Below are positions 9,941-33,217 of a stretch of DNA of 64,000 nucleotides, piece by piece (position 1 is the first letter of the stretch; every line of letters starts with the position of its first letter). This stretch comes from an uncultured Eubacteriales bacterium (lineage in GTDB: Bacteria > Bacillota > Clostridia > Lachnospirales > Lachnospiraceae): the NCBI GenBank assembly GCA_900314885.1, contig OMWY01000001.1:372001-436000 (forward strand). Reading direction: 5' to 3'. Both the position numbers and the translations under genes were made by a program. Under the pieces are notes generated by a model, which worked only from the letters and a program-made list of their open reading frames with translations, searched no databases and was not told the DNA's origin.

Positions 9941-11098
9941 ATGAAGAATATTTTGAAAAATGTATTGGTGTTGCTTACTGTAATTTCAATCGCTATCGGT
10001 ACATTTACGAGCTTAAGCGTTACGGCCATGGCTGACACCGGCACGGTTACGCTTGGCAGCGAATCAAGCGCGGTTACGGTAGGCGAGAAATTCAAGGTCA
10101 CGCTCACCATAAAAAGCGATGTGCCGGTGAGCGGCCTTGAGACCTATATAACTTATCCCGCGAAGCTGGCGAAATTCATATCGGCTGACCAGGGTATAAC
10201 CGGAGGTAATGGTATTCTTAAGGTTAACCTTCTTGATGCCGATGAGGGTGAGACCTGGAACTCATTTGATATCCGCTTTAAGGCGAGGAACACGGGCGAA
10301 TTCAAGGTAAAATTCGCAGACGCCGTTCACCTCTACTCCTATGCGAGCGGCGAGGAGCTGTCCATTTCAACCAGTCCGGTTACTATTAATATCAAGGCGG
10401 ACACAGGCGCAAGCGATGACGCCACCCTACAGGCCCTAAGGATAGGCGGTGAAGCTCTGACTCCGGCCTTTGATAAGGACACGAGGAATTATTACGTCTC
10501 GGTTGAAAATGATGTGAAGAGCCTTGTGATAAGCGCTATTCCGAATGATTCTTCGTCTACGGTCACGGTTTCCGGAAATAAGGGCTTTAAGGTTGGATCA
10601 AACAATATTATAAAGATTACAGTTACAGCTGAAAGTGGCAACACAAGCGAATATACGATCCAGGTGACGAGGAAGAGTAAGTCTGGCGACACGAAGGACG
10701 GTACAGATAGCGAAGCGGGCGGAAACGCTAGCGGAAGCGGCTTAACGGGAGAAAATGGGACCGCAGCAAGCGGAAGCGGTATCACATCAGATCCTCTCAT
10801 GGAGGAGCTTAACCCCGGCCTTGCTTCAGGGAGCGCTGTCGAATCCGCTAGCGGAGAAGCCGTAACCGAGGGAGAAAACGGCAGCTACACCACAGGGAGC
10901 GAAGCCATAACATCAGGCGGTGAAGCTATAACAAATGGGAATACCGGCGAAAATACTGTAAACAATCCATTTCCAAGTATTAAAATTGATGAAAGTGGTG
11001 CAAAAATCATCAGAAGTGTTATAATAGTATTGGCGGTAGTTGTAGTACTGCTGGTAATATTTTCCATAATATACCTATTTACGAAAAAAAAGGAATGA
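9941..11098 (+). CDS. Membrane-anchored cohesin-like/cadherin-like surface protein
   Basis: 385 residues. A signal peptide ends near TAMADT (residue 31). Residues about 35-150 resemble a cohesin-type beta-sandwich (VTVGEKFKVTLTIKSDVPVS, then LETYITYPAKLAKFISAD). Residues about 160-245 form a cadherin-like module (LTPAFDKDTRNYYVSV, TSEYTIQVTRK). A Ser/Gly/Glu-rich linker follows (about 250-345). One transmembrane helix (about 354-380) with a terminal KKKE anchors it with the bulk outside. A cohesin-like fold alone does not prove cellulosome function; no dockerin was seen in the window. It is 4 bp after the glucosaminidase and 6 bp before clpC. Confidence 0.65.
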   Translation: MKNILKNVLVLLTVISIAIGTFTSLSVTAMADTGTVTLGSESSAVTVGEKFKVTLTIKSDVPVSGLETYITYPAKLAKFISADQGITGGNGILKVNLLDADEGETWNSFDIRFKARNTGEFKVKFADAVHLYSYASGEELSISTSPVTINIKADTGASDDATLQALRIGGEALTPAFDKDTRNYYVSVENDVKSLVISAIPNDSSSTVTVSGNKGFKVGSNNIIKITVTAESGNTSEYTIQVTRKSKSGDTKDGTDSEAGGNASGSGLTGENGTAASGSGITSDPLMEELNPGLASGSAVESASGEAVTEGENGSYTTGSEAITSGGEAITNGNTGENTVNNPFPSIKIDESGAKIIRSVIIVLAVVVVLLVIFSIIYLFTKKKE

Positions 11099-14039: not shown

Positions 14040-15403
14040 TGGCAAAGAGTAAAACAGTATTTTTCTGCAAGGAATGTGGCTATGAGTCATCCAAATGGAT
14101 GGGTCAGTGCCCTTCCTGCAAGGCTTGGAATTCTTTTGTTGAGGCGCCGGTAGCTGCTAAGAAGCCCGGTGCCTCGTCTGTTAAGGTGGGACTCACTGAG
14201 ATAAAGTCGGTTAAATTAAGAGACGTCTCACTTATAAATGATGAGCGCATCAAGACTGATATAGGTGAATTCGACCGTGTGCTTGGCGGTGGCATAGTAA
14301 AGGGATCTCTTGTTCTTGTAGGCGGTGATCCCGGTATAGGAAAATCTACCCTCCTCCTTCAGATGTGCGCCAAATTGTCAGCTAAGGATGTTAATGTGCT
14401 TTATGTATCCGGAGAGGAAAGCCCCAAGCAGATAAAAATGAGGGCGGAACGCTTAGGGGATTCTACGGATGATATTTCGCTGTTTTGCGAAACAGATTTA
14501 GGCAAAATTGAAAATGTTATTGAGGCTGATAAACCTGACGTGGTTGTAATAGACTCAATTCAGACTATATATCGCGATGAGGTTGATGCGGCTCCGGGCT
14601 CTATTTCTCAGGTCCGTGAAGCCACCTCCTCCCTCTTAAGGGTCTCAAAGGACCTCGGGGTATCCATTTTCATAGTCGGCCATGTTACGAAGGAGGGAAC
14701 GGTAGCGGGCCCCAGAACCCTCGAGCACATGGTCGACACTGTTCTCTATTTTGAGGGCGAGAATGTCGCGTCCTATAGAATTCTTCGCGCCGCTAAGAAC
14801 AGGTTCGGTAGTACGAATGAAGTCGGCGTATTTGATATGAGCTCCGAAGGCCTGACCGAGGTAACGAATCCTTCCGAATACATGCTCGCCGGAATGCCTG
14901 AAAACGCGCCAGGCTCCGTAATTGCATGTACCATAGAGGGCAGCAGGCCCATTCTTGTTGAGGTCCAGGCTCTTGTAAGCCCCACAAATTTTAATTTCCC
15001 TAAGAGGACAGCGAACGGAGCAGATTTTAACCGCGTAAACATGATAATAGCTGTCCTTGAAAAGCGCCTTGGCTTAAACCTTGGCACCTGTGATATTTAT
15101 ATAAATATAGCAGGCGGTCTCCGTGTAAATGAACCGGCTCTCGACCTTGCTATCGCCGCAGCTATTATTTCAAGCTACAGGAACAAAGAAAGCGCCAGGA
15201 AAATAGTAGCGTTTGGTGAAATAGGCCTTACCGGCGAAGTCCGCGGGATCCGTGAGGCTGACGCAAGACTATCGGAAGCGATAAAATCAGGAGTTCCGCT
15301 TGCGATAATTCCAAAGGTAAATGTCAAGGTATCCAAAAAGGAAAGCTCCGTGATGCAGGTAAATGGCGTAAGAAATATAAGAGAGTTAATGGAGTTTATT
15401 TAA
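14039..15403 (+). CDS. radA: DNA repair protein RadA (Sms)
   Basis: RecA-like ATPase that promotes branch migration in recombinational repair. 454 residues, normal length. The N-terminal C4 zinc finger (CKECGYESSKWMGQCPSC, residues about 9-26), Walker A GGDPGIGKST, the RadA-specific KNRFGSTNE motif and a C-terminal Lon-protease-like domain are all visible. The start overlaps the preceding stop. The next gene begins after a single base, and the composition turns markedly AT-richer there, which marks the left edge of the accessory block. Confidence 0.95.
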   Translation: MAKSKTVFFCKECGYESSKWMGQCPSCKAWNSFVEAPVAAKKPGASSVKVGLTEIKSVKLRDVSLINDERIKTDIGEFDRVLGGGIVKGSLVLVGGDPGIGKSTLLLQMCAKLSAKDVNVLYVSGEESPKQIKMRAERLGDSTDDISLFCETDLGKIENVIEADKPDVVVIDSIQTIYRDEVDAAPGSISQVREATSSLLRVSKDLGVSIFIVGHVTKEGTVAGPRTLEHMVDTVLYFEGENVASYRILRAAKNRFGSTNEVGVFDMSSEGLTEVTNPSEYMLAGMPENAPGSVIACTIEGSRPILVEVQALVSPTNFNFPKRTANGADFNRVNMIIAVLEKRLGLNLGTCDIYINIAGGLRVNEPALDLAIAAAIISSYRNKESARKIVAFGEIGLTGEVRGIREADARLSEAIKSGVPLAIIPKVNVKVSKKESSVMQVNGVRNIRELMEFI

Positions 15404-15404
15404 A

Positions 15405-17150
15405 ATGAAAGAGAAAACTATAGGACAGTTATTGCAGTTTGTGAGAAACAACAAGAACATGCGGATGAAGGATGTCTGCGAGGGAATTTGTGATTCTACA
15501 ACATACAGTCGCTACGAAACCGGTGAGTATATACCGGATATGTTTACGGCAGGATTTCTTCTTGAACGTATGGAAGTCGATTCATCAGGCATACAATATG
15601 TATCATCATATGAGGAGGCTGAAGCCTTAGTAATAAGAAAGACTCTTCAAAATGCGCTTCATAGTGGGGAACTGCTTGATAATGAATCGTTAATTGATTA
15701 TTATAAGAAAAACTATAGCAGAAAAAAGGCACATAGGCAGTACATCACCTTCTATGAAGGCAAGTTACAGGAACTAAAAGGATTAACAGAGGATGCTGAA
15801 AGGCTGTATCTGGAAGGCTATCTTATTACACACAAAGATAAGAAAAATCTGACTCAGCCATATTTCAGCAAACAGGAACTAGGCCTGTTGATATCATATT
15901 TAAGAATAACAAAAAGCAAAGAATACTGGCAAGAACTTTATCAATATCTTCTAGGCAAGGATAAGTATAATGTCTTAAAAATGGTTTTTACAGCTGATGT
16001 TGCCATCGGATTCTGTGAATCCGAAGCCGCAGATGGAGAAGAACCTGTAATGATAAATGCATCATTACAATATCTGAAGGAAATAAATGCCTTAATAGGA
16101 ACGTGGCAGCTTCTAAAATATAAGCAAAACAACCCATCGAAGACCGGGAGACTCACTCAGGATGAGAAAAACCTGTATGATGCCATAACTGAATTGGAAC
16201 TACAAATACCAAATGACGGAAAAGAGTTCAGAAGGTGGACAAAGGGTGATCTGCTCCATTCTCTCAGAAAGGAACTTGGACTCACTCAGGAAGAGCTGTC
16301 GGATGGAATATGCGATGTTACTGTATTAGCGAGATATGAAAGTGGTAAACTTGATCCAGGCAAAGAGAAGCTTGAACTTCTGCTAAATAGGATGCATCGA
16401 TCAGGTGTGAATTACAAGTTCTCATATAATTCCGGAACAATGTACAATATTGAGAATTATATGGAAATGGAAAAGAGTGTAGAAAGGCATGATGTGAAAG
16501 ATGGCATAAATAAGTTCTATTCTAATGCAGTCCTTATGAATTCTTTTATGGATGACATGGAAAAAACTCAAATGAATGAAGAGGTTGCGATAGTAAGAAA
16601 ATATTCTGAAGGAAATATAGATCAAAAGACATACATTGCTGAATTGGAAAAGCTTATTAAAAGGTCTATACCGGAATTTAAGGATGGCAAGTTTTCGTAT
16701 AATCGGATAATGAATGAAACTGAAATTAGCATATTGAACATTATTGGAGTAGCATATAGAAACAATGATGAGACCGCTAAAAGTATGGCGTTATATGATA
16801 ATGTTGAAAAGTATGTATATGAACATAACATGCCATTTAACAAAGCCATTGTAAAGGCGTTAAATAATTATTCTGATTTCTTGATGCTAGATGGCGATTA
16901 CGACAAAAGTTCAGAACTTAGTAAGAAAGTTATGACTTCAATACTTGAATACGATAGCCGGAATATGTTATTTATTACTGTGTATCACATGGCATGTTCA
17001 CTTTACGCCCAAAATGCATGGAACAGTAGACAAACGATAAGGTGTCTGGAATTAAGCCATGCGCTTGCAGTATACTTCAATGAGTCGAATGTTGCAATAG
17101 ATGTAATAGAGAAGTACCTTGATATTGAGTTTCATATAAAACTGAAATAA
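15405..17150 (+). CDS. Double-HTH, helical-repeat regulator (RRNPP/Rgg-like)
   Basis: 581 residues, no membrane segment. An XRE-type HTH lies at about residues 6-52 (DVCEGICDSTTYSRYETGEY) and a second at about 282-330 (LTQEELSDGICDVTVLARYE). They share the pattern LL..R...(E/D)GICD.T...RYE.G, about 274 residues apart, so the protein looks like an internal tandem duplication and could act as a pseudo-dimer. Each HTH is followed by helical, TPR-like sequence. HTH plus TPR is the architecture of RRNPP cytoplasmic receptors for imported peptides. A convergent pheromone-like gene lies 50 bp past the stop. It starts 1 bp after radA and is clearly AT-richer. A paralogue is fused to a radical SAM enzyme at 21966. 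Direct target genes are unknown. Confidence 0.7.
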   Translation: MKEKTIGQLLQFVRNNKNMRMKDVCEGICDSTTYSRYETGEYIPDMFTAGFLLERMEVDSSGIQYVSSYEEAEALVIRKTLQNALHSGELLDNESLIDYYKKNYSRKKAHRQYITFYEGKLQELKGLTEDAERLYLEGYLITHKDKKNLTQPYFSKQELGLLISYLRITKSKEYWQELYQYLLGKDKYNVLKMVFTADVAIGFCESEAADGEEPVMINASLQYLKEINALIGTWQLLKYKQNNPSKTGRLTQDEKNLYDAITELELQIPNDGKEFRRWTKGDLLHSLRKELGLTQEELSDGICDVTVLARYESGKLDPGKEKLELLLNRMHRSGVNYKFSYNSGTMYNIENYMEMEKSVERHDVKDGINKFYSNAVLMNSFMDDMEKTQMNEEVAIVRKYSEGNIDQKTYIAELEKLIKRSIPEFKDGKFSYNRIMNETEISILNIIGVAYRNNDETAKSMALYDNVEKYVYEHNMPFNKAIVKALNNYSDFLMLDGDYDKSSELSKKVMTSILEYDSRNMLFITVYHMACSLYAQNAWNSRQTIRCLELSHALAVYFNESNVAIDVIEKYLDIEFHIKLK

Positions 17151-17157
17151 GTGGTGA

Positions 17158-17194
17158 GGCAAGAAACCTCATATGTAAAGTCAGGTTTCTTGCC
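17158..17194 (+). terminator. Convergent hairpin between regulator and peptide gene
   Basis: GGCAAGAAACCT (17158-17169) and AGGTTTCTTGCC (17183-17194) form a perfect 12-bp stem with a 13-nt loop. It lies between the ends of the regulator (plus) and the small peptide gene (minus). The T-tract is short on the plus side (TTT) and poor on the minus side, so termination efficiency is uncertain, but a shared bidirectional terminator is the simplest reading. Confidence 0.6.
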
Positions 17195-17200
17195 TTTGCC

Positions 17201-17326
17201 TCATAACACTATGGGTGGTATCCCAATAGGAAGTTCGATAATGATATTATTAGCTTCACAAATAAGTGGGCTAAGTAACATCATCAATAGTACTGCTTGA
17301 ATAAGTATCTTGTAGATATGTTTCAT
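17201..17326 (-). CDS. Short secreted hydrophobic peptide, putative RRNPP pheromone precursor
   Basis: A 41-codon gene shorter than usual ORF cut-offs. The ribosome-binding site is perfect: AAGGAGG (plus-strand 17334-17340), 7 nt from the ATG. The protein opens with MKHIYK and a hydrophobic core ILIQAVLLMMLLSPLI, then CEA, a plausible signal peptidase site, leaving a 16-residue tail ending ELPIGIPPIVL. A charged start, an export core and a short hydrophobic C-terminal tail are how SHP/PapR-like pheromone precursors are built. It is convergent with the HTH/TPR regulator, a common pheromone-receptor layout. A TATAAT box lies about 30 bp upstream. It could alternatively be a small toxin or a substrate of the nearby radical SAM enzymes. 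Confidence 0.65.
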   Translation of the reverse strand: MKHIYKILIQAVLLMMLLSPLICEANNIIIELPIGIPPIVL

Positions 17327-17357
17327 GATTTTTCCTCCTTAACCAATGTCTCTACAT

Positions 17358-17386
17358 ATTATAATATGGTGAACGAATGTATAACA
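17358..17386 (-). promoter_or_regulatory. Promoter of the pheromone-like gene
   Basis: On the minus strand a perfect -10 TATAAT (plus 17358-17363) is preceded at 17 bp by a poor -35, TGTTAT (17381-17386). A strong -10 with a weak -35 is expected of an activator-dependent promoter. The -35 overlaps the end of the 18-bp palindrome at 17383-17426. Predicted 5' leader is about 25 nt. Confidence 0.55.
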
Positions 17387-17430
17387 TGGCGTATTCAGCA
17401 GTTAAAAATGCTGAATACGCCATGTTTTTT
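17383..17430. promoter_or_regulatory. Perfect 18-bp palindrome: candidate operator and/or terminator
   Basis: AACATGGCGTATTCAGCA (17383-17400) and TGCTGAATACGCCATGTT (17409-17426) are perfect complements around an 8-nt spacer (GTTAAAAA). On the plus strand T6 follows (17425-17430), the form of an intrinsic terminator, yet no gene between the hairpin at 17158-17194 and this point would need it on that strand. On the minus strand the palindrome abuts and overlaps the -35 of the peptide gene, where an activator dimer would bind. Both roles are possible. Confidence 0.65.
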
Positions 17431-17453
17431 CTGTAAGGTGTGTGGTAATATAA

Positions 17454-17563
17454 GATTATCATCTAGATGAAGATGATAGCGTTTACAAGTACTACTATAA
17501 TTATATGGAAAGGAAATCTAATTTCTGCATAGAGAGTCACTTATCACTAACTCTGAAGAAGCG
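17454..17563 (+). pseudogene. Possible remnant of a radical SAM N-terminal region
   Basis: Upstream of the radical SAM start, one frame is open from 17454 and reads like coding sequence (DEDDSVYKYYYNYMERKSNF), ending at a TGA at 17563-17565 that overlaps the annotated ATG. The frame of the downstream gene is itself open back to 17522 without a good start codon. This suggests a decayed or frameshifted N-terminal part. It may also be chance in AT-rich DNA. Confidence 0.3.
17473..17501 (+). promoter_or_regulatory. Candidate promoter of the radical SAM/ABC operon
   Basis: ATGATA (17473-17478), 17-bp spacer, TATAAT (17496-17501). The -10 is perfect and the -35 matches four of six positions. The predicted start near 17508 gives a leader of about 55 nt before the ATG at 17564. 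It overlaps the putative coding remnant, which argues that the remnant is no longer translated. Confidence 0.45.
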
Positions 17564-18571
17564 ATGACAGTGCTAGCTTTGTTTAAAGAGAATATGACAA
17601 ATTATGGAATATATACAATAATGCCTACTGAAGCCTGTAATTTCAGATGCTCGTATTGCTATGAAAATCATCCGAATCGAGAGATGAGCTATGACACTTT
17701 AAATACTATAAAGAAGTATATTGTTAATGAGGCACCGAGGCTTAAAGCTGCTTCTGTGAATTGGTTTGGTGGAGAACCTACATTATGCAGGGATGAAGTA
17801 CTTGAGTGCTCGGAAGATATGTATTCATACTATAATGGAATTGGAAAAAAGATATCTATCACTATGACAACTAATGGCTATCTCTTATCTGAAGAGGATT
17901 TTTGCAGATACTATAAGGCAGGAATAAAATCTTTCCAGATAACCATGGATGGATACGAACATGATAGTATGAGAAAATTAGCTAATGGAGATGGGACATT
18001 GTCAAGGATTACAGATAACCTTGATTTGATAAAAAGCTTATCTCCTGATATGTACCAATTTGAAATTATAATTCGCAGAAAAATTGGGCTGAATGATAGT
18101 GATTTAGAATGGTATGATTATATGAACAGTAAATACGGTAATGACCCAAGGTTTAAGTTCGTCATTCACAAGATATTTGATTGTAAACATATAAGCAACA
18201 ATGAGCTTGCGCAAAGGGAGAATTTGAATTACGATTCTCATAAAAGATATATTGAAAAATTGGGATTAAACATGTATAATAAAGACGTACCATTTGGCGA
18301 CATTTGTTACGCAAGCTATCCTAACAGCTGTGTGTTCAGGGCTGATGGCTATATAGAAAAATGTACAGTCTGTCTGGGTGACGAGCGTAATATTATAGGA
18401 AGAGTGCATGATGGGAGGGTTAATATAGATGATAAAGAGCTGAATGACAAGTGGTGTACCAACAACTTGCCGGAAAAATGTTTGACCTGCAAAAAGGTAC
18501 TGTCTTGTCTTAATCTTAGATGTAGAAGATACACATTAATTGACAAACCGGGTACACTATCGTGTGCCTGA
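17564..18571 (+). CDS. Radical SAM/SPASM-type peptide-modifying enzyme, short N-terminus
   Basis: 335 residues. The [4Fe-4S]-SAM motif is C25-N-F-R-C29-S-Y-C32, followed by the SAM-contacting VNWFGGEPT. The C-terminal third is cysteine-rich (CVFRADGYIEKCTVC, then CLTCKKVLSCLNLRC), as in SPASM domains that bind auxiliary Fe-S clusters. The CxxxCxxC motif starts at residue 25, whereas it lies at about 77 and 116 in the other two SPASM enzymes of this window. The N-terminal leader-peptide recognition part therefore appears missing. The ribosome-binding site is weak (GAAGAAGC). The ABC exporter follows by 11 bp, as expected of a RiPP-like operon. No clear precursor other than the convergent 41-codon gene was found. 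SPASM enzymes usually crosslink or cyclise peptides. Confidence 0.7.
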   Translation: MTVLALFKENMTNYGIYTIMPTEACNFRCSYCYENHPNREMSYDTLNTIKKYIVNEAPRLKAASVNWFGGEPTLCRDEVLECSEDMYSYYNGIGKKISITMTTNGYLLSEEDFCRYYKAGIKSFQITMDGYEHDSMRKLANGDGTLSRITDNLDLIKSLSPDMYQFEIIIRRKIGLNDSDLEWYDYMNSKYGNDPRFKFVIHKIFDCKHISNNELAQRENLNYDSHKRYIEKLGLNMYNKDVPFGDICYASYPNSCVFRADGYIEKCTVCLGDERNIIGRVHDGRVNIDDKELNDKWCTNNLPEKCLTCKKVLSCLNLRCRRYTLIDKPGTLSCA

Positions 18572-18582
18572 AAGGGGGACTT

Positions 18583-20178
18583 ATGAAATACTACATAATG
18601 AAGCACTTTAAAATCAACCTGTTTGCTGTCATTGTCCAGGTATTAATGAGCGGTATCCAGGTTGGTCTGAATCTCGTATTGATTTGGAGTATGCAAGCTC
18701 TTATAGACAGGGATGCAAAGACCTGCCTTACCTGGCTTGCGATAGATGTTATTGGATGGATGGTTGTCCTTTTACTTGACGCCTTTAAGGGATTTCTTGC
18801 GAACAACGCAATCAGGCGTATGAATAATGATGTAAGAGCTGATATGACAAACAGCCTTTTAGCTAAATCCTATAATGAGTATCATGAGCAGGATAGCGGT
18901 GAGTATATATCACATTTCACAAATGATATTAAGCAGATTGAAGAGAGCGCATGGAATCCTTTCTTTTCATGTATTGATTCTGTGGCTCAGATATTATTCA
19001 GTATTGTGGCGCTCTTTACCATGCATTGGTCTTTGCTGGTCGCTTCATTAATTGCTGCCGCGATTATCATTTTCGCGCCGGGCTTACTTGGAAATAAAAT
19101 GCAGGCCTTAGGAGCGAAGTCAATGGAGGAACAGGCTAAAGCGACCGATAGTCTCAAAAATATTTTTATGGGTTATGATGTGTTTCGTTCATTTGGGAAA
19201 GAGCTTCTTCTTAAGAAAAAGAGTTCCGAGCAGAGCGCGCGTATTGAGAACGCTAAGTTTAATCTTAACTTTAAGCAGAACCTGTACGGTGACGCAATAG
19301 CCTTTTTTAGTGTTATATGTCAGTGCAGTGTCAGCATATTAATTATGATTCTTTCTATCAAGGGAATAATCATACAGTCAGCTATTATGGGCGGTGGAAA
19401 TATTTGCGCCTCTATCTATAATAACTTAGGACAGCTTGGTGGATATAAGATGAGGTTTGAGGCAGCTAAACCAATCTTTAAAGCTATCAAGCATGGAGAT
19501 GAGCTTGCTGTTGATTCTAACGAGGCAAAGCAGTTGCCGGAGCTTTCATCTAAGATCGAGTTCAAGGATGTAAACTTTGCCTATGGCGATAAGCCTGTGC
19601 TCAGTAATTTGAATCTTACATTCGAGGCCGGAAAGAAGTACGCCATAGTCGGGGCCTCAGGAAGCGGAAAGTCTACGACCTTAAAGCTTCTTCTTGGATG
19701 GCTGACTGATTACACCGGCGAGATTCTTTATGACGGTGTCAATGTAAAGGACTACTCTCCTGAACAGCTTCAGAAGCGAATGAGCTATATAGAGCAGAAC
19801 GTATTTCTCTTTAATACAACAATTAAGGAAAATATAACTCTCGAGGATAATTTTACTGAGGCAGAGCTTGACAAGGCCTGCGATAACAGTGCCTTATCAG
19901 GTGATTTGGGAAAGCTTGATGATGGTATTAATACAGAGGTAGGCGATCAGGGAAGCAATATTTCCGGTGGTCAGAAGCAGAGAGTCGCGATAGCCAGAGC
20001 TCTTATCCACAACCGCAATATCCTCCTTGTTGATGAAGGAACCAGCGCCCTTGATAAGACTAACGCTGAGATAGTAGAAAATAATCTCCTTAAGAATAAA
20101 GACCTCACCCTCATACTTATCAGTCACCACCTAAGTGATGAAAGAATGAAGCTCTTCGACAAGGTCTATACGATCTGA
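18583..20178 (+). CDS. ABC exporter, fused membrane and ATPase domains
   Basis: 531 residues. I chose the ATG at 18583 because AAAGGGGGACTT lies directly ahead; an in-frame GTG at 18562 lies inside the radical SAM gene. Six hydrophobic helices are spread over residues 1-290, followed by an ATPase domain with Walker A GASGSGKST, signature ISGGQKQR, Walker B ILLVDEGTSALD and H-loop ISHH. No C39 peptidase domain is present, so any leader removal would need another protease. The type I exporter fold and the place behind a radical SAM enzyme suggest export of a modified peptide or of the pheromone; this is inference. Confidence 0.85.
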   Translation: MKYYIMKHFKINLFAVIVQVLMSGIQVGLNLVLIWSMQALIDRDAKTCLTWLAIDVIGWMVVLLLDAFKGFLANNAIRRMNNDVRADMTNSLLAKSYNEYHEQDSGEYISHFTNDIKQIEESAWNPFFSCIDSVAQILFSIVALFTMHWSLLVASLIAAAIIIFAPGLLGNKMQALGAKSMEEQAKATDSLKNIFMGYDVFRSFGKELLLKKKSSEQSARIENAKFNLNFKQNLYGDAIAFFSVICQCSVSILIMILSIKGIIIQSAIMGGGNICASIYNNLGQLGGYKMRFEAAKPIFKAIKHGDELAVDSNEAKQLPELSSKIEFKDVNFAYGDKPVLSNLNLTFEAGKKYAIVGASGSGKSTTLKLLLGWLTDYTGEILYDGVNVKDYSPEQLQKRMSYIEQNVFLFNTTIKENITLEDNFTEAELDKACDNSALSGDLGKLDDGINTEVGDQGSNISGGQKQRVAIARALIHNRNILLVDEGTSALDKTNAEIVENNLLKNKDLTLILISHHLSDERMKLFDKVYTI

Positions 20179-20194
20179 ACAGTAACCAATCTAA

Positions 20195-20245
20195 TTGACG
20201 TAATCCCGTCTTTATGGTAGAATTTATCATAAAGATGGGACTTTT
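20195..20245 (+). promoter_or_regulatory. Promoter with embedded dyad/terminator hairpin, copy 1
   Basis: TTGACG (20195-20200), 17 bp, TAGAAT (20218-20223) forms a good sigma-A promoter for the AAA gene at 20267. A 13-bp dyad straddles the -10: TCCCGTCTTTATG (20204-20216) and CATAAAGATGGGA (20228-20240, one G-T pair), followed by CTTTTGTTTT. Transcripts from the upstream ABC gene would form a terminator hairpin here while the same DNA promotes the next gene. Copy 2 is at 25968-26018. Confidence 0.65.
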
Positions 20246-20266
20246 GTTTTATAAAGGAGCACTACT

Positions 20267-21973
20267 ATGAAGAATTTGCCGACAGGATGGGATGACTTTG
20301 AAAGGGTCATTAAGGACGGTTATTACTATGTTGATAAGACTAAGCTTATCAGCAATTTAATAGGAACAGGGAGCGCTGTAACTCTCTTTACGCGCCCAAG
20401 ACGGTTTGGGAAGACTCTTAATATGAGCATGCTAAAGAACTTTTTTGAAATAGGGAGCGATCCTTCGCTCTTTGACGGCCTTGCTATAGCCGATAACAAG
20501 GAGTTATGTGAGAAGCACCAGGGAAAGTATCCGGTGATATCCATATCGCTAAAACGGGTTGATGGAAATACGTTTGACGAAGCTTATGGAAAGCTTTGTG
20601 ATGTTGTAGGTGGGGAAGCTGAGAGATTTGCTTTCCTGCTTGACAGTACGAAGCTTTCCGAAGGTGATAAAGAGGATTACAGAAAATTAATCAAACGTGA
20701 GTCTGACTCAGCAACATATTATTCTATACCTACCAACATCCTGACAGGCAGTTTACAGAAGCTCTCGCTGTTGCTGAGTAAACATTATGGAGTGAACACA
20801 GTAATCTTGATAGACGAATATGATGTACCTCTTGATAAAGCTCATGTTCATGGCTATTATGATGAAATGGTTGGCATAATCAGAAGTATGTTCCATGACG
20901 CCTTAAAAACAAATAGCAATCTGGCTTTTGCTGTTTTAACCGGATGTCTTCGTGTCTCTAAGGAGAGCATATTTACAGGCCTCAATAACCTGAGAATTGA
21001 CTCTATTTCTATGCCTAGAAGCGGAGAAACGTTTGGTTTCAGTGATGAAGAAGTTGAAAATATATTGAGAGACTATGGCATATATGACAAGAAGAATGAA
21101 ATTAAAGCCTGGTATGACGGATTCAGATTTGGTAATGATGAAGTATACTGTCCATGGGATGTAATAAACTATGTCAATGATAATATTTTTGAGGGAAGCA
21201 AAGGCGCTATAAATTACTGGGCGAATTCGAGCAGTAACGAGCTTGTAAGGGAGTTTGTTGATATATCAACCAGAGAAACAACTGAGGAACTTGAGAAGCT
21301 TGTGGCAGGCGATAAGGTAGAAAAACGCATAAATGAGAATTTAACATACAGAGATCTTGACGGAAGCATAGATAACATTTGGGGTATTCTTTACGCCACG
21401 GGGTATCTTACGGGAACTCGCGGCGCTGATAATATATATACGCTTTGGATTCCGAATAAGGAAGTTTGCCAAATTTACGAAGAGGATATTTTAAAGTGGT
21501 TTGATAACCGGGTCAGAAGAGATACTGAGTCCGCCACGAAGTTTTATAATGCCTGCTTAAACGGCGAATCTGCTGAGATGAACAAGGTTCTGAATAAGTT
21601 ATTGAGGAAGTCGGTTAGCGTAAGGGATACATTCGCGAGAAAAGATCTGAAAGAAAACTTTTACCATGGTTTTATATTAGGACTCCTGTCGCAGTTTAGT
21701 GATATTCAGAGCAACAGGGAAGGCGGAAACGGCTTCTCTGATATTACGATTGTAAATGACAAACTGAACAAAGCAGCCATCCTTGAGCTTAAATACTCAG
21801 AAACTGAGGGCTTGCAGACCATGGAAAAGGTCTGCGATGAAGCGCTTAAGCAAATAGAATATAAGAACTATGCCGAAGACCTGGTACTGTCAGGGTATGA
21901 GCCAATATATAAGTATGGTCTCGCCTTTAACAAGAAAAGAAGCTATGTGAAGATGGAGCAACAAAATGTATAA
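20267..21973 (+). CDS. AAA-ATPase-like / PD-(D/E)XK domain protein, copy 1
   Basis: 568 residues. The N-terminal AAA-ATPase-like domain has an unusual P-loop (RPRRFGKTLNMSML, around K49-T50) and a Walker B-like VILIDEYDVPLD. The C-terminal region carries a nuclease-like signature: SDITI, then AAILELKYSETEG, consistent with a PDDEXK_9-type fold. The family is abundant in gut Firmicutes and Bacteroidetes; its function is not settled. Residues 1-96 are identical to the copy at 26040, and identity returns in the middle (YRDLDGSIDN), whereas the rest diverges. The ribosome-binding site is AAAGGAGC. The stop overlaps the next gene by 8 bp, so it heads an operon with the regulator-radical SAM fusion and the MFS exporter. 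Confidence 0.8.
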   Translation: MKNLPTGWDDFERVIKDGYYYVDKTKLISNLIGTGSAVTLFTRPRRFGKTLNMSMLKNFFEIGSDPSLFDGLAIADNKELCEKHQGKYPVISISLKRVDGNTFDEAYGKLCDVVGGEAERFAFLLDSTKLSEGDKEDYRKLIKRESDSATYYSIPTNILTGSLQKLSLLLSKHYGVNTVILIDEYDVPLDKAHVHGYYDEMVGIIRSMFHDALKTNSNLAFAVLTGCLRVSKESIFTGLNNLRIDSISMPRSGETFGFSDEEVENILRDYGIYDKKNEIKAWYDGFRFGNDEVYCPWDVINYVNDNIFEGSKGAINYWANSSSNELVREFVDISTRETTEELEKLVAGDKVEKRINENLTYRDLDGSIDNIWGILYATGYLTGTRGADNIYTLWIPNKEVCQIYEEDILKWFDNRVRRDTESATKFYNACLNGESAEMNKVLNKLLRKSVSVRDTFARKDLKENFYHGFILGLLSQFSDIQSNREGGNGFSDITIVNDKLNKAAILELKYSETEGLQTMEKVCDEALKQIEYKNYAEDLVLSGYEPIYKYGLAFNKKRSYVKMEQQNV

Positions 21974-24638
21974 TAAGACTATAGGCGATTTGCTATATTA
22001 TTATAGAAATCAGAAGAAAATAAGTGAAGAAGAATTATGCTCGGGTATATGCAGCGTAAGTACATATTCGAGATATGAAAGTGATGAAACAACGACCGAC
22101 AAATTTACATATGGCTATTTTTTCGAAAGGATGGGAGTTGACTTCGATACAATAAACTATCTATCTTCCCCATCGGAAGGCAAGATTGAAAATGAGAGAA
22201 ATAAAATATATTGTTGTCTCAAAGAGAAAAATTATGAAGGAACTAAAGCTCTTCTTGAGGAATATGTTAAGAAACATGGAAAAAAGAAAATACATAAACA
22301 ATACGCAATGCTGGTAAAAGGATGGCTGAGTGAATTAAAAGGAGATAAGGAAAAAGCACAAGTTAGCTATGCTGCCGGTATAGCTTGTACCAACATTGAT
22401 ATACACAATATTAATAAATTATATTCAAGTATAGAATGCGAACTACTTCTTTGCTATATAAGATGTACTCATAATACAGATTATTTGTCGAAATTATTGA
22501 CATTTTTACAAGGTAAAGATGAATATGACTGTATAAGAGCCCACTTTCAAACAAAGGCGTCGCTTCAGTACATTAAAGGCCTTGAGAATATTGATAAGAA
22601 GATTAAAATAATAAATGAAACAGAAGATTATCTTAAAAATATCAAACGAATAACAGGATTAAATCGACTGTTAAAGGAAAAGAAAGCATTAGCGGATATG
22701 GCAAAACTGGATGACGATGAGCAGGTGATACTTGATAATATAGATTTATTATTCCAAATAAGGGATATAGAACCTAATAACAAAGCGACTTATACCGAAT
22801 CTGATTTGATAAGAAATCTTAGAAAAGAAACAAATCTGACCCAGATTCAGTTATCGAATGATATCTGTGATACAACCTTGTTAGCTAGATATGAAGAAGG
22901 GAAGGTTGATCCCGGAAAAGGAAAATATAGACAATTAATGAACAAAATGGGAAGAGATGGGCAAAATTATAAGTTGACATATGCGACAGGAAAATTTCAG
23001 GATATCAAGCAGTATTATAAGATAGAAAAGATGTTTGAAAACAATGAGAATGACAGAGCGTTACAGGAAATGTTTTATAATGACATAGAATCAAACTTTG
23101 TTACGAATGATTTAGAGAAAAGTCAGATGATATCAAGAATAAAGCTTTTAAAAGAAAAGTATGCGAAGAAACTGTCTGTAAATCAATATATTGGTAAACT
23201 GGAGAAATTGTTAAGCAGGTCAATACAAGAATATCAAAAAGGGGAGTTCTCAATTTTGTTATTTATTTCTTGTGTGATGACAATTAGATTGAAAGGGAGT
23301 TATAGTATGCTGCATTATTTTGAAAAAGATGGTGAGAATGTTCTGATTAGCGGAAAGTATCTTACGGTTAATCATATAGACAAGAAAACAGGAGAGTACA
23401 TCAATAATCTGTCGTATGAGGAAAACCAGAAGTTAGAGGATCAGATCGCTAAAAATAAAAGGTATAATACGCCCAAGAGAGCGCTTAGGAGTAAAAGAAA
23501 CTGTGAAAAGTTGTCACTTGTTGTTACAGACAAATGTAATATGACTTGTAAATATTGCTATGAAAAGGAATTTGATTCCTATAACCATGGGTTTATGTCG
23601 GAAGAAACCATGAAGAACGCAGTTGATTTCTTCTATAAGCGATATCCAGAGGGAATAAGTATTATACATTTCTTTGGTGGGGAACCATTGATGAATTTTG
23701 AACTGGTCGAGAATTCTGTAATTTACATTCATAATAAATCCCAAAATGAAGGCTACTGTGCACCAAAGTTTGTAATGTCAACTAATGGCACCTTGCTAAA
23801 TGATGAGAATATTGACTTCTTGGAAGGGTATTTTGAATCAATAACTATAAGCCTCGATGGCGTGAAAAATGTTAATGACAGCAACAGGAGATTCAAAGGT
23901 AATGAAGAAGTTAGTGTATATGACAGAGTAATAGATAGGATAAAATATATTAATGAACGTAAGGATAAGCTGAAAATAGGCCTTGAGACAACATTCACAA
24001 GGCAGAATTATTTATATCTCAAAGAGAATAACATATCAGCCCGTAAATATGTAGATTTTCTATATTCGCTCGGAACTGATATGGTGGCTATAAAACCGGT
24101 GATATCTTTCGACGGAGGCGAGGAATATTCACTCGAAAATGAAAATGAGTCAAAGTTGTTTGAGTTTATAGATGAGATGCACTCTGAGATTCTCAGAAGA
24201 AATAATAATCTTTATAGTTCTAATATAATAAATAATATTCTTAATCAGAAATATAAAGATTATTATTGCAGCGCAGGTACAAATTCCTTTTCAGTTTCTA
24301 CAAGTGGAGATATTTACCCATGCTTTATGTTTGACGGGAAAAGGCAGTTCAAAATGGGGAACGTTAACGAGAAGACGGATGATAATAAATTTACAGCTAC
24401 AAAAGATAAAATTCAAAGTCTATCGAAGACAACCAATGGAAATTGTAAAGATTGTTGGGCTAATAAACTGTGCGATTCAACTTGCGCAGGGTGTATAGGC
24501 TCTTTTGAACTGTATAATCAAGATATAAAGAAGCCTATAGACTTTAATTGTAAAGTTGGCAAGACTATGATAGAGAGAAGTGTTGTAGAAATGATTGAAA
24601 CAATAAAAAACTTTCAGTCTGCAAGTTGTGAGGCATAA
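21966..24638 (+). CDS. Fusion of truncated double-HTH regulator with a radical SAM/SPASM enzyme
   Basis: 890 residues in one frame. Residues 1-430 parallel the regulator at 15405: HTH 1 at about 5-52 (SGICSVSTYSRYESDE) and HTH 2 at about 280-328 (LTQIQLSNDICDTTLLARYE). Similarity ends at QKGEFS, matching KDGKFS near residue 428 of the paralogue, so the last ~150 regulator residues are gone. After 18 unrelated residues comes M448, the natural start of the enzyme: GAAAGGGAG lies 7 nt before that ATG (23307). Radical SAM motif C524-N-M-T-C528-K-Y-C531, then FFGGEP; SPASM cysteines near CKDCWANKLCDSTCAGC. The enzyme is probably also made alone from 23307. It overlaps the AAA gene by 8 bp and the MFS gene follows after 2 bp. 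Confidence 0.7.
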   Translation: MYNKTIGDLLYYYRNQKKISEEELCSGICSVSTYSRYESDETTTDKFTYGYFFERMGVDFDTINYLSSPSEGKIENERNKIYCCLKEKNYEGTKALLEEYVKKHGKKKIHKQYAMLVKGWLSELKGDKEKAQVSYAAGIACTNIDIHNINKLYSSIECELLLCYIRCTHNTDYLSKLLTFLQGKDEYDCIRAHFQTKASLQYIKGLENIDKKIKIINETEDYLKNIKRITGLNRLLKEKKALADMAKLDDDEQVILDNIDLLFQIRDIEPNNKATYTESDLIRNLRKETNLTQIQLSNDICDTTLLARYEEGKVDPGKGKYRQLMNKMGRDGQNYKLTYATGKFQDIKQYYKIEKMFENNENDRALQEMFYNDIESNFVTNDLEKSQMISRIKLLKEKYAKKLSVNQYIGKLEKLLSRSIQEYQKGEFSILLFISCVMTIRLKGSYSMLHYFEKDGENVLISGKYLTVNHIDKKTGEYINNLSYEENQKLEDQIAKNKRYNTPKRALRSKRNCEKLSLVVTDKCNMTCKYCYEKEFDSYNHGFMSEETMKNAVDFFYKRYPEGISIIHFFGGEPLMNFELVENSVIYIHNKSQNEGYCAPKFVMSTNGTLLNDENIDFLEGYFESITISLDGVKNVNDSNRRFKGNEEVSVYDRVIDRIKYINERKDKLKIGLETTFTRQNYLYLKENNISARKYVDFLYSLGTDMVAIKPVISFDGGEEYSLENENESKLFEFIDEMHSEILRRNNNLYSSNIINNILNQKYKDYYCSAGTNSFSVSTSGDIYPCFMFDGKRQFKMGNVNEKTDDNKFTATKDKIQSLSKTTNGNCKDCWANKLCDSTCAGCIGSFELYNQDIKKPIDFNCKVGKTMIERSVVEMIETIKNFQSASCEA

Positions 24639-26039: not shown

Positions 26040-27740
26040 ATGAAGAATTTGCCGACAGGATGGGATGATTTTGAAAGGGTCATTAAGGATGGCTATTATT
26101 ATGTTGATAAGACTAAGCTTATCAGCAATTTAATAGGAACAGGAAGCGCAGTGACACTCTTTACGCGCCCAAGGCGCTTTGGCAAGACTCTGAACATGAG
26201 CATGCTAAAAAACTTCTTTGAAATAGGAAGTGACCCGTCGCTTTTTGATGGGCTCGCTATAGCCGATAACAAGGAGTTATGTGAGAAGCACCAGGGAAAG
26301 TATCCGGTGATTTCTATTTCACTTAAAGGCGTCAGCGGGTTGACATATAGTGAGGCTGTGGAAAGGATGCGTGATGTCATTGGACAAGAGGCTGACAGGT
26401 TTCATTTTCTGCTTGAGAGCGATAAGTTGACCGGGAATGAGAAAATTGACTATGCTAAGATAGTAAAGCGCAATGAAGAGGGAGACACCAATTATAACAT
26501 GAGCGAGGATATAATGATCTCAAGCTTGTATAAACTTTCCTATCTTCTATATAAGCACTATGGTGAGCGTACGGTTATTCTTATCGATGAGTATGATGTA
26601 CCTCTTGATAAGGCTCATATCCACGGTTATTATGATAAGATGGTCGAGTTGATAAGAGGCATGTTTCATGCTGCCTTGAAAACTAACGACAATCTGGCTT
26701 TTGCTGTCCTTACCGGTTGCCTTCGCGTCTCTAAGGAAAGTATATTTACAGGTCTGAATAACCTTGATGTATATAGTATCAGCGACCCTGAATGCGATGA
26801 CCTGTTTGGTTTTAATGAAGCAGAAGTAAACAAGATTCTGGAGGATTATGACCTCTCAGAGAAGAAAGATGAGGTAAAGGTCTGGTATGATGGTTATAAA
26901 TTTGGTAAAAAAGATATTTATTGCCCTTGGGATGTTCTGAAATATGTTGAGAAGCATTTAAGCGACAGAGACCTTGAACCGCTGAATTACTGGGCAAATT
27001 CCAGCGGCAACGACCTGGTTCGGGAGTTTGTTGACATTTCAACAAAAGAGACAACAGAAGAACTTGAGAAGCTTGTGGCAGGTAAGAAGGTCGAAAAGCG
27101 GATAAATGAGAACCTTACATACAGAGATTTAGATGGAAGCATAGATAACCTCTGGGGTATTCTTTACGCTACAGGTTATCTTACCGGAACCCGTGGCGCT
27201 GATAATATATATACCCTTTGGATTCCGAACAAGGAAGTTCGCCAAATTTACGAGGATGATATATTAAAGTGGTTCAACAACAGAGTCAAGGAAGATACGA
27301 GTTCAAAGGAGACATTTTATAAGGCGATAATTACCGGAAATTCCGAAGAGATGGAAGAGGTTTTAAATTCTCTTTTATTTGATTCGATTAGCATAAGAGA
27401 TACATTTACAAGAAAATACATGAGAGAGAATTTTTATCATGGTTTTGTTCTTGGACTTTTGAGCGGCTTTAAGACAGTGAGAAGCAACTCTGAGTCGGGA
27501 GATGGATATTCCGATATCATGGTTCTTGACAGGCAGAGCAAAACAGCCGCAATACTTGAATTAAAATACGCTGATTCAGATGATGTCGAAGTCATGGAAA
27601 AGGCATGTGCGTCAGCATTAGCCCAGATAGAGGAAAAGAAATATGATGCCCCGATAATTCGCGCAGGATTGGCGAAAACAATATGGAAGTATGGAATTTC
27701 ATTCAATAAAAAGCTTGCCTGCGTGAGAAAGAATCAGTAG
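26040..27740 (+). CDS. AAA-ATPase-like / PD-(D/E)XK domain protein, copy 2
   Basis: 566 residues. Same build as the copy at 20267: RPRRFGKTLNMSML P-loop, VILIDEYDVPLD Walker B, and YSDIMVLDRQ...AAILELKYAD near the C-terminus. The first 96 residues are identical to copy 1, then residues about 97-150 differ strongly, then a long near-identical stretch returns (TEELEKLVAG to DNIYTLWIPNKEV), then the C-terminus diverges. This mosaic points to gene conversion between the copies. It has its own promoter and is followed by 60 bp that hold the topB promoter. Confidence 0.8.
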   Translation: MKNLPTGWDDFERVIKDGYYYVDKTKLISNLIGTGSAVTLFTRPRRFGKTLNMSMLKNFFEIGSDPSLFDGLAIADNKELCEKHQGKYPVISISLKGVSGLTYSEAVERMRDVIGQEADRFHFLLESDKLTGNEKIDYAKIVKRNEEGDTNYNMSEDIMISSLYKLSYLLYKHYGERTVILIDEYDVPLDKAHIHGYYDKMVELIRGMFHAALKTNDNLAFAVLTGCLRVSKESIFTGLNNLDVYSISDPECDDLFGFNEAEVNKILEDYDLSEKKDEVKVWYDGYKFGKKDIYCPWDVLKYVEKHLSDRDLEPLNYWANSSGNDLVREFVDISTKETTEELEKLVAGKKVEKRINENLTYRDLDGSIDNLWGILYATGYLTGTRGADNIYTLWIPNKEVRQIYEDDILKWFNNRVKEDTSSKETFYKAIITGNSEEMEEVLNSLLFDSISIRDTFTRKYMRENFYHGFVLGLLSGFKTVRSNSESGDGYSDIMVLDRQSKTAAILELKYADSDDVEVMEKACASALAQIEEKKYDAPIIRAGLAKTIWKYGISFNKKLACVRKNQ

Positions 27741-33076: not shown

Positions 33077-33217
33077 ATGAAGCATATCAAGAGCTTAAAG
33101 ACAAGAAATCTCAAGGAGTCTATGAAGAAGGGCGGATGCGGCGAGTGCAAGACATCATGCCAGTCAGCCTGCAAGACTTCCTGCACAGTAGGTAATCAGA
33201 GCTGCGAGAAGGCCTGA
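33077..33217 (+). CDS. SCIFF ranthipeptide precursor
   Basis: 46 residues, below usual ORF cut-offs. It starts MKHIKSLKTRNLKES and ends with a core of six cysteines (KKGGCGECKTSCQSACKTSC, then VGNQSCEKA), matching the six-cysteines-in-forty-five family that is near-universal in Clostridia. The maturase, a radical SAM/SPASM enzyme, follows at 33301. SCIFF maturases install thioether links from Cys to the alpha or gamma carbon of other residues (ranthipeptides). The ATG has an ACGGAGG site at suitable distance. The biological role of SCIFF is still debated; quorum or metabolic signalling has been proposed. Confidence 0.93.
   Translation: MKHIKSLKTRNLKESMKKGGCGECKTSCQSACKTSCTVGNQSCEKA

Follow-up and report, generated by a model that had tools for sequence, protein, structure and literature searches.

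What could a gene of 41 codons be doing that runs head-on into the gene for a large helix-turn-helix (HTH) regulator in a genome of the Lachnospiraceae, a family whose members are among the commonest bacteria of the gut and mouth? This question was raised by positions 15,405 to 17,430 of a 64,000-nucleotide stretch of contig OMWY01000001.1 (assembly GCA_900314885.1, from an uncultured Eubacteriales bacterium), to which we refer as the window. A preliminary description had placed there a minus-strand frame with AAGGAGG at 7 nt and TATAAT about 30 bp off, convergent with a 581-residue protein of HTH and helical-repeat type, and had taken the two for a signalling pair resembling the RRNPP family. 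Both genes and the two signals were indeed recovered at the coordinates given for them (Table 1), and the reading as a signalling pair was supported by the recurrence of the pair and by the fold and sequence of the receptor. The answer that we consider probable is that the 41-codon gene encodes a secreted and re-imported signal for the 581-residue double receptor, which would switch the peptide gene and the adjoining radical S-adenosylmethionine (SAM) and ATP-binding cassette (ABC) genes via a palindrome.

The encoded peptide starts with positive charge, continues with a long hydrophobic stretch (score 2.77) and ends in the tail NNIIIELPIGIPPIVL. Of the ATG-initiated frames with 25-75 codons in the window, five are preceded by a strong ribosome-binding site, and of these five the 41-codon frame is the only one with an export-type N-terminus; by eye, the other four include what we take to be a six-cysteine peptide and a ribosomal-protein-like frame. 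The frame lies within the bounds used for pro-peptides of RRNPP(A) systems (10-100 residues, -60 to 400 bp, ATG, ribosome-binding site). Its product had no family match in Pfam or NCBIfam. The convergent peptide and receptor genes are separated by 50 bases, with a stem in between.

The preliminary description had named a lack of conservation of the small frame beside related regulators as grounds against its reading; the frame turned out to be conserved in the family at large. Homologues of the receptor (E 1e-15) were present in 35 of 299 sampled Lachnospiraceae genomes, the sample holding about one genome per genus. From these matches 40 loci were fetched; once L089, which has no full regulator frame, had been left out before counting, there were 42 loci with a regulator frame, including the window and its paralogous loci L042 and L043. 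Two of the 42 had too little flank and were dropped, leaving 40 regulators for a strict rule: an ATG with a ribosome site, an early K or R, a hydrophobic 11-mer and 25-75 residues, in a frame convergent with the gene and -60 to +200 bp from it. Under this rule, which like the thresholds for the small frame was set once these loci had been inspected a first time, a convergent export-type frame accompanied 23 of the 40 regulators as against none of 210 further genes taken from the loci. At the remaining positions a strict-rule frame was rare for regulators and other genes alike: downstream on the same strand (1/40 versus 4/210), upstream on the opposite strand (0/39 versus 2/187) and upstream on the same strand (0/39 versus 0/187). 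Additions by hand (L079, L098, L101 and L104) raised the convergent count to 27 of the 42 loci. In many loci the peptide frame abuts the stop codon of the receptor gene or overlaps it by a few bases. Finding the same pairing in so many Lachnospiraceae makes a cell-to-cell signalling system likely.

The count includes some irregular loci. The strict-rule match at L075 is probably the wrong frame, as a 76-residue export-type frame with AAAGGAGG lies at the same place; this frame is just above the length limit, and L075 was kept as one match. At L083 and L107 a signal-like stretch 3' of the receptor is out of frame with its ATG, behind an A run, which might reflect phase variation, decay or an assembly error. 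These two were counted as misses, as was L088, where a 23-residue frame follows AAGGAGG. In a class-wide draw of 391 genomes, 7 had matches at E 1e-20, one of them the genome of the window (own genome); 8 of the 11 new places were obtained as loci, and 5 of these 8 had a convergent frame under a looser rule in which the ribosome-site requirement was dropped. With so few matches in this draw, the system seems to be centred on Lachnospiraceae and thin beyond them. A search with the L074 protein in the genus around G222 found nothing.

The regulator itself is, judging from sequence comparison and predicted models, a tandem fusion of two receptor halves of the PlcR/Rgg/PrgX type. HTH_3 was found in two stretches of the protein, and the predicted models agree with two HTH domains; the C-terminal tetratricopeptide repeat (TPR) superhelix resembles that of known RRNPP(A) receptors, and the two halves are homologous to each other. 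In a Foldseek search the N-terminal half placed PlcR, Rgg144, Rgg2, PrgX and ComR on top, the best E value being just 1e-3, and its profile matched Rgg2. The C-terminal half aligned with PlcR nearly end to end, and Rap structures were also among the fold-search matches. The Pfam family RNPP_C matched the window receptor weakly (23.7 bits, below the cut-off of 26.5) and reached 31.7 bits with the L074 relative; 6 of 29 relatives matched at E 1e-3. NCBIfam gave nothing at cut-off for the regulator among the matches listed. Sequence comparison and predicted fold thus both mark the receptor as RRNPP-like. Residues N445 and N488 are nearly invariant: Asn occupies the first position in 48 and the second in 45 of the 50 sequences of alignment A6, and in the more diverse alignment A3 the counts are 16 and 21 of 29. 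The two fall on PlcR N159 and N201, which presumably touch PapR. These contact asparagines had no match in the accessible text of PMC6568020 and PMC3519770. For other receptors of this kind, the accessible text of PMC5131891 describes ComR N208 as contacting the peptide backbone, as is usual for TPR domains, and RapF Asn227 has support in print, in the text available to us, as a peptide-contacting residue.

Validated RRNPP receptors have one HTH-TPR unit per chain and 285-473 residues; the window receptor has two units in 581 residues, and 36 full-length frames span 581-699 residues. We therefore set it down as a variant that works like RRNPP receptors rather than as an ordinary member. Some relatives have a split form, with the two halves encoded as two overlapping genes. 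Among 10 relatives retrieved with the window receptor, 3 proteins exceeded 40% identity, so the close branch is narrow.

The palindrome lies between the peptide gene and the divergent genes. Between its end and the -10 element lie 19 bp in the window, as compared with 18 bp at the L002 paralogue, so that it reaches the -35 region, as switching with feedback would have it; since it also stands between two divergent genes, the peptide-bound receptor would switch both from there. Comparable palindromes stand beside both other full-length paralogous loci of the own genome. Across that genome the half-site pattern occurred at 14 places (2 in the reversed control), and six of the 14 form three palindromes, each beside one of the three full-length regulators. 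The palindrome pattern occurred at 5 places (1 in the control); three are those beside the regulators, and at the remaining two the flanking bases and the layout are missing. Beyond this genome, an inverted repeat scoring at least 14 lies upstream of 18 of 26 peptide genes versus 10 of 44 intergenic controls, and one scoring at least 20 upstream of 12 of 26 versus 0 of 44 intergenic and 1 of 137 controls overall. A CATGRCnTWTT-like half-site is common to 12 of the 18 repeats, a deviating half-site ATACCAAAA being found in L105 and L110 (same-genus genome G003); the L073 repeat overlaps its ribosome site and was excluded from this comparison. With a half-site motif taken from the same loci after the arms had been seen, at least two half-sites were counted for 15 of 38 regulators in the flank on the 3' side, versus 2 of 38 on the 5' side. 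A scan of the 299 genomes was a weak test: it gave 55 places in 40 genomes, and the reversed control gave 92, or 43 once two genomes were set aside, so that the palindrome pattern itself is not enriched. With the control that frequent, the scan is informative only through placement near regulators, and 10 of the 55 palindromes sit 140-618 bp past a regulator's 3' end; this comparison of distances used 37 of 71 regulator places, none of the rest being near a listed palindrome. Another of the 55 palindromes is that of L136 (1501-1869), which is followed 126 bp on by a lone export-type, proline-rich peptide gene, with no regulator within the 3 kb at hand; from its sequence, this is a possible solo signal.

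The best-surviving objection to this account is that the palindrome is a terminator or an RNA attenuator rather than an operator, in which case the pair may still signal and the link to the divergent genes would be lost. A terminator scan does rate 17383-17426 as a terminator of the plus strand, accompanied by a T run, and T runs adjoin some other palindromes. However, by eye no T run follows the palindrome at L002 or L003, and the distances to the -10 element at the window and L002 loci differ by a single base pair. Furthermore, the arm sequence itself is shared, with an ATGRC- or ATAGC-type half-site in 13 of 18 palindromes compared, including those of the three paralogues. We therefore regard a terminator as unlikely and an operator as the better description.

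The pair would presumably act on the radical SAM and ABC genes of the window, as the palindrome in between and the divergent layout suggest. Promoter-like sites in the stretch ahead of the radical SAM gene numbered 3, no more than in shuffles (mean 2.9). The radical SAM protein had no NCBIfam match at cut-off among the best 25 of 63 matches, and an Rfam scan of 14500-21000 gave nothing at gathering scores. In the other loci, the next frame of at least 85 codons runs in the receptor's direction, away from the peptide gene, in 28 of the 38 loci having one. The 65 such downstream genes include 9 with ABC_tran, 6 with Radical_SAM and 3 with MFS_1, and a radical SAM motif was present in 8 of 36 loci among the 62 genes looked at; with so low a share, radical SAM enzymes are one class of target and not the rule. 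Targets thus differ from locus to locus, and the receptor-peptide pair stays.

These neighbours raise the alternative that the 41-residue peptide is a precursor of a ribosomally synthesized and post-translationally modified peptide (RiPP), processed by the radical SAM enzyme and exported by the ABC transporter, the regulator just controlling the cluster. Radical SAM and ABC genes come next in both the window and L042, no other precursor was noticed by eye ahead of them (in the window, between the palindrome and the radical SAM gene, among frames of at least 35 codons), and streptococci are known to have radical SAM peptide operons under Rgg control, according to the accessible text of PMC13361665 and PMC12445099. 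The small frame, however, tracks the receptor (27 of 42 loci) and not the radical SAM gene (8 of 36); the peptide gene is served by its own -10 element, on the opposite strand, and its product has an export-type N-terminus; and across 26 peptides no conserved core residue is apparent by eye. A RiPP precursor is thus very unlikely. As a side observation, about 300-400 bases 3' of the receptor at L093, past the palindrome, there is a small RiPP-like frame MLALIQSYELKKISPDGVACPGGNPYRVVSIM followed by a gene with the radical SAM motif.

The paralogous loci of the own genome suggest how such pairs may diverge. This genome holds two further full-length receptor paralogues, one with an internal stop, and also a truncated receptor copy fused to a radical SAM enzyme. 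At L002/L042 the paralogue has a convergent export-type frame of 36 residues, MKHFRRLLSAITMVCLLLSPFIGLISQEPWDIPPFF, ending EPWDIPPFF; of 36 positions aligned with the window peptide, 14 are identical, including MKH, LLSP and IPP. At L043 the palindrome, the -10 element and the ribosome site are kept, and by eye there is just a 10-codon frame. The two loci show a complementary decay: at L042 (10997-12871) the receptor is broken and the peptide whole, and at L043 (8829-9080) the receptor is whole and the peptide lost. Their receptor proteins, P0002 and P0003, are 48% identical, and the half-site GCGTATCGTGCAA is present at both, so that, judging from these sequences, cross-talk between L042 and L043 is possible. 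A second case comes from L155 and L156, two loci of one genus, whose receptors are 72% identical and whose palindromes are by eye nearly the same; their peptides agree at 15 of 47 positions and have unrelated tails. Tails that differ beside a conserved receptor and palindrome are what diverging signal types should show. At L157-L159 (44% identity) there is a single half-site and the peptide is absent, and at L160 the peptide lies 70 bp on.

According to the proposed mechanism, the signal-like N-terminus would direct export of the peptide, which would then be cut to a C-terminal fragment within the tail; the fragment would be imported through an oligopeptide permease and bound in the TPR groove of one or both receptor halves. 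These steps, from export to binding, are inferred by analogy with RRNPP systems. For import, the genome has three SBP_bac_5 proteins above cut-off, a family of oligopeptide-binding type. The peptide-bound receptor at the palindrome would switch the peptide gene and the divergent genes, with feedback, be it through repression by the free receptor or activation by the bound one. Two HTH units per chain would suit the long arms (~16-24 bp) better than a dimer of single-HTH chains.

An exported peptide beside an HTH regulator could also be a Sec-exported bacteriocin or a small membrane toxin that the regulator holds in check, and short hydrophobic exported peptides do adjoin HTH regulators in bacteriocin and toxin systems as well. 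Such a product is highly doubtful here, however: the regulator halves resemble peptide receptors and keep the groove asparagines, the tails are diverse with many of them polar or proline-rich, and the pair persists while the target genes vary. Finally, short frames are common and the peptide has no family match, yet a chance open frame can hardly explain a feature found beside none of the 210 control genes, unique in 64 kb and matched by the 36-residue counterpart at L002 with MKH, LLSP and IPP in common. Of these accounts we retain the secreted signal and its double receptor.

Several known systems resemble this pair in part. In the PlcR-PapR system of the Bacillus cereus group, a small exported pro-peptide adjoins the receptor, which acts at a palindromic site. 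PlcR, too, combines HTH and TPR, and it is the protein with which the C-terminal half aligns; in contrast to it, the window receptor has two HTH-TPR units in one chain of 581 residues, and the peptide genes described here are convergent, overlapping or nearly touching the receptor 3' end, with long palindrome arms. The Rgg-SHP (short hydrophobic peptide) systems of streptococci likewise have a short peptide adjoining the receptor, and the N-terminal half matches the Rgg2 profile and the Rgg144 and Rgg2 folds. As in the Rgg-controlled radical SAM RiPP systems (accessible text of PMC13361665 and PMC12445099), a radical SAM/ABC operon adjoins the pair in the window, whereas no RiPP precursor was noticed there by eye among frames of at least 35 codons. 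Rgg is, however, a single receptor unit, and SHP is exported by PptAB, according to the available text of PMC10075063, whereas the N-terminus of the window peptide is signal-peptide-like. The QssR-type RRNPP systems of Clostridium also pair a receptor of RRNPP type with a small peptide in Clostridia; they belong to another family, and the opening lines of the abstracts of PMC7206700 and PMC7376267 do not mention a fused double receptor. AimR, NprR and Rap are TPR peptide receptors as well, with 5-9 TPRs. In the portion of PMC12700828 available to us, such receptors share five core TPRs, to which an HTH and four extra TPRs may be added, so that variation lies in these extra repeats or in loss of the HTH and not in a second HTH-TPR unit.

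The size of the receptors may bear on their absence from surveys. RRNPP_detector has a default receptor range of 250-500 residues, set from validated receptors of 285-473 residues (PMC10075063, in the text accessible to us), which excludes receptors of 581-699 residues. Lachnospiraceae are not named, in that text, among the families with signal-linked gene clusters, and the string 'Lachnospir' is missing from the main text of the RRNPP surveys PMC10075063, PMC12700828 and PMC9765709. A literature search, with most subscription papers and preprints outside its scope, yielded, among the entries listed, no report of such a double-HTH receptor and no paper on RRNPP-type signalling in Lachnospiraceae. 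Peptide signalling of this type thus seems to be undescribed in the family. The system would work like RRNPP signalling, and what would be new is the double-unit receptor. A more tentative proposal, plausible yet short of an even chance, is that Lachnospiraceae hold an unlisted signalling branch in which two fused RRNPP receptors, with two grooves and two DNA heads, serve as a built-in dimer or a two-signal detector at an extended palindrome, their tails diversified like private channels.

The trio of receptor, convergent peptide and palindrome makes about two dozen receptor-signal pairs available as candidates for tests with synthetic tail peptides, and it points to genes possibly under their control, radical SAM and ABC genes among them. 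The presence of split beside fused forms gives an opening to ask why the receptor became a single-chain double unit.

Table 1. Features of the window at and around the peptide-receptor locus (positions in the window; strand + or -, a dot where none applies).
Feature	Positions	Strand	Details
Receptor/regulator, 581 residues, tandem fusion of two HTH-TPR halves (predicted)	15405..17150	+	
N-terminal HTH-TPR half, residues 1-277	15405..16235	+	separate model: predicted local distance difference test (pLDDT) 89.3, predicted template modelling score (pTM) 0.87
C-terminal HTH-TPR half, residues 278-581	16236..17150	+	near-invariant N445 and N488
Inverted repeat, terminator-like, between the convergent genes	17157..17195	.	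13-base perfect arms
Pro-peptide gene, predicted exported pheromone precursor	17201..17326	-	ATG start, 41 residues MKHIYKILIQAVLLMMLLSPLICEANNIIIELPIGIPPIVL, stop
Ribosome-binding site AAGGAGG	17334..17340	-	7 nt ahead of the peptide-gene ATG
-10 element TATAAT of the peptide gene	17358..17363	-	31 nt separate its end from the ATG
Palindrome AACATGGCGTATTCAGCA..TGCTGAATACGCCATGTT, predicted operator of the peptide gene and divergent operon	17383..17426	.	21-base arms, 95% complementary
Candidate promoter of the radical SAM gene	17473..17501	+	ATGATA-17-TATAAT
Radical SAM protein, 335 residues, divergent from the peptide gene	17564..18571	+	PF04055, E 1.4e-19
ABC transporter, membrane and ATPase domains	18562..20178	+	PF00664, PF00005

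Some other genes of the window and its relatives were observed in passing. At 21966-24638 on the plus strand there is an in-frame fusion of 890 residues. Its first part, about 432 residues long, is the N-terminal portion of a paralogous double-HTH receptor, and its second part is a SCIFF/PapB-like radical SAM-SPASM maturase, which TIGR03974 matches below cut-off over residues 421-874; a major facilitator superfamily (MFS) transporter gene comes next. At 33077-33217 (+) there is a small Cys-rich peptide, MKHIKSLKTRNLKESMKKGGCGECKTSCQSACKTSCTVGNQSCEKA, which we take to resemble the six-cysteine peptide SCIFF. The fusion and MFS genes are flanked by similar AAA-ATPase-like/PDDEXK_9 genes at 20267-21973 and 26040-27740 (Pfam on the first one), and by eye relatives of these genes lie beside the other two receptor loci, at L042 (13581-15377) and L043 (16063-17760). 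L042 also holds, at 10351-10611, a short radical SAM-like frame of 86 residues with weak matches, followed by a PqqD-like gene, another radical SAM-like gene and an ABC-like gene.

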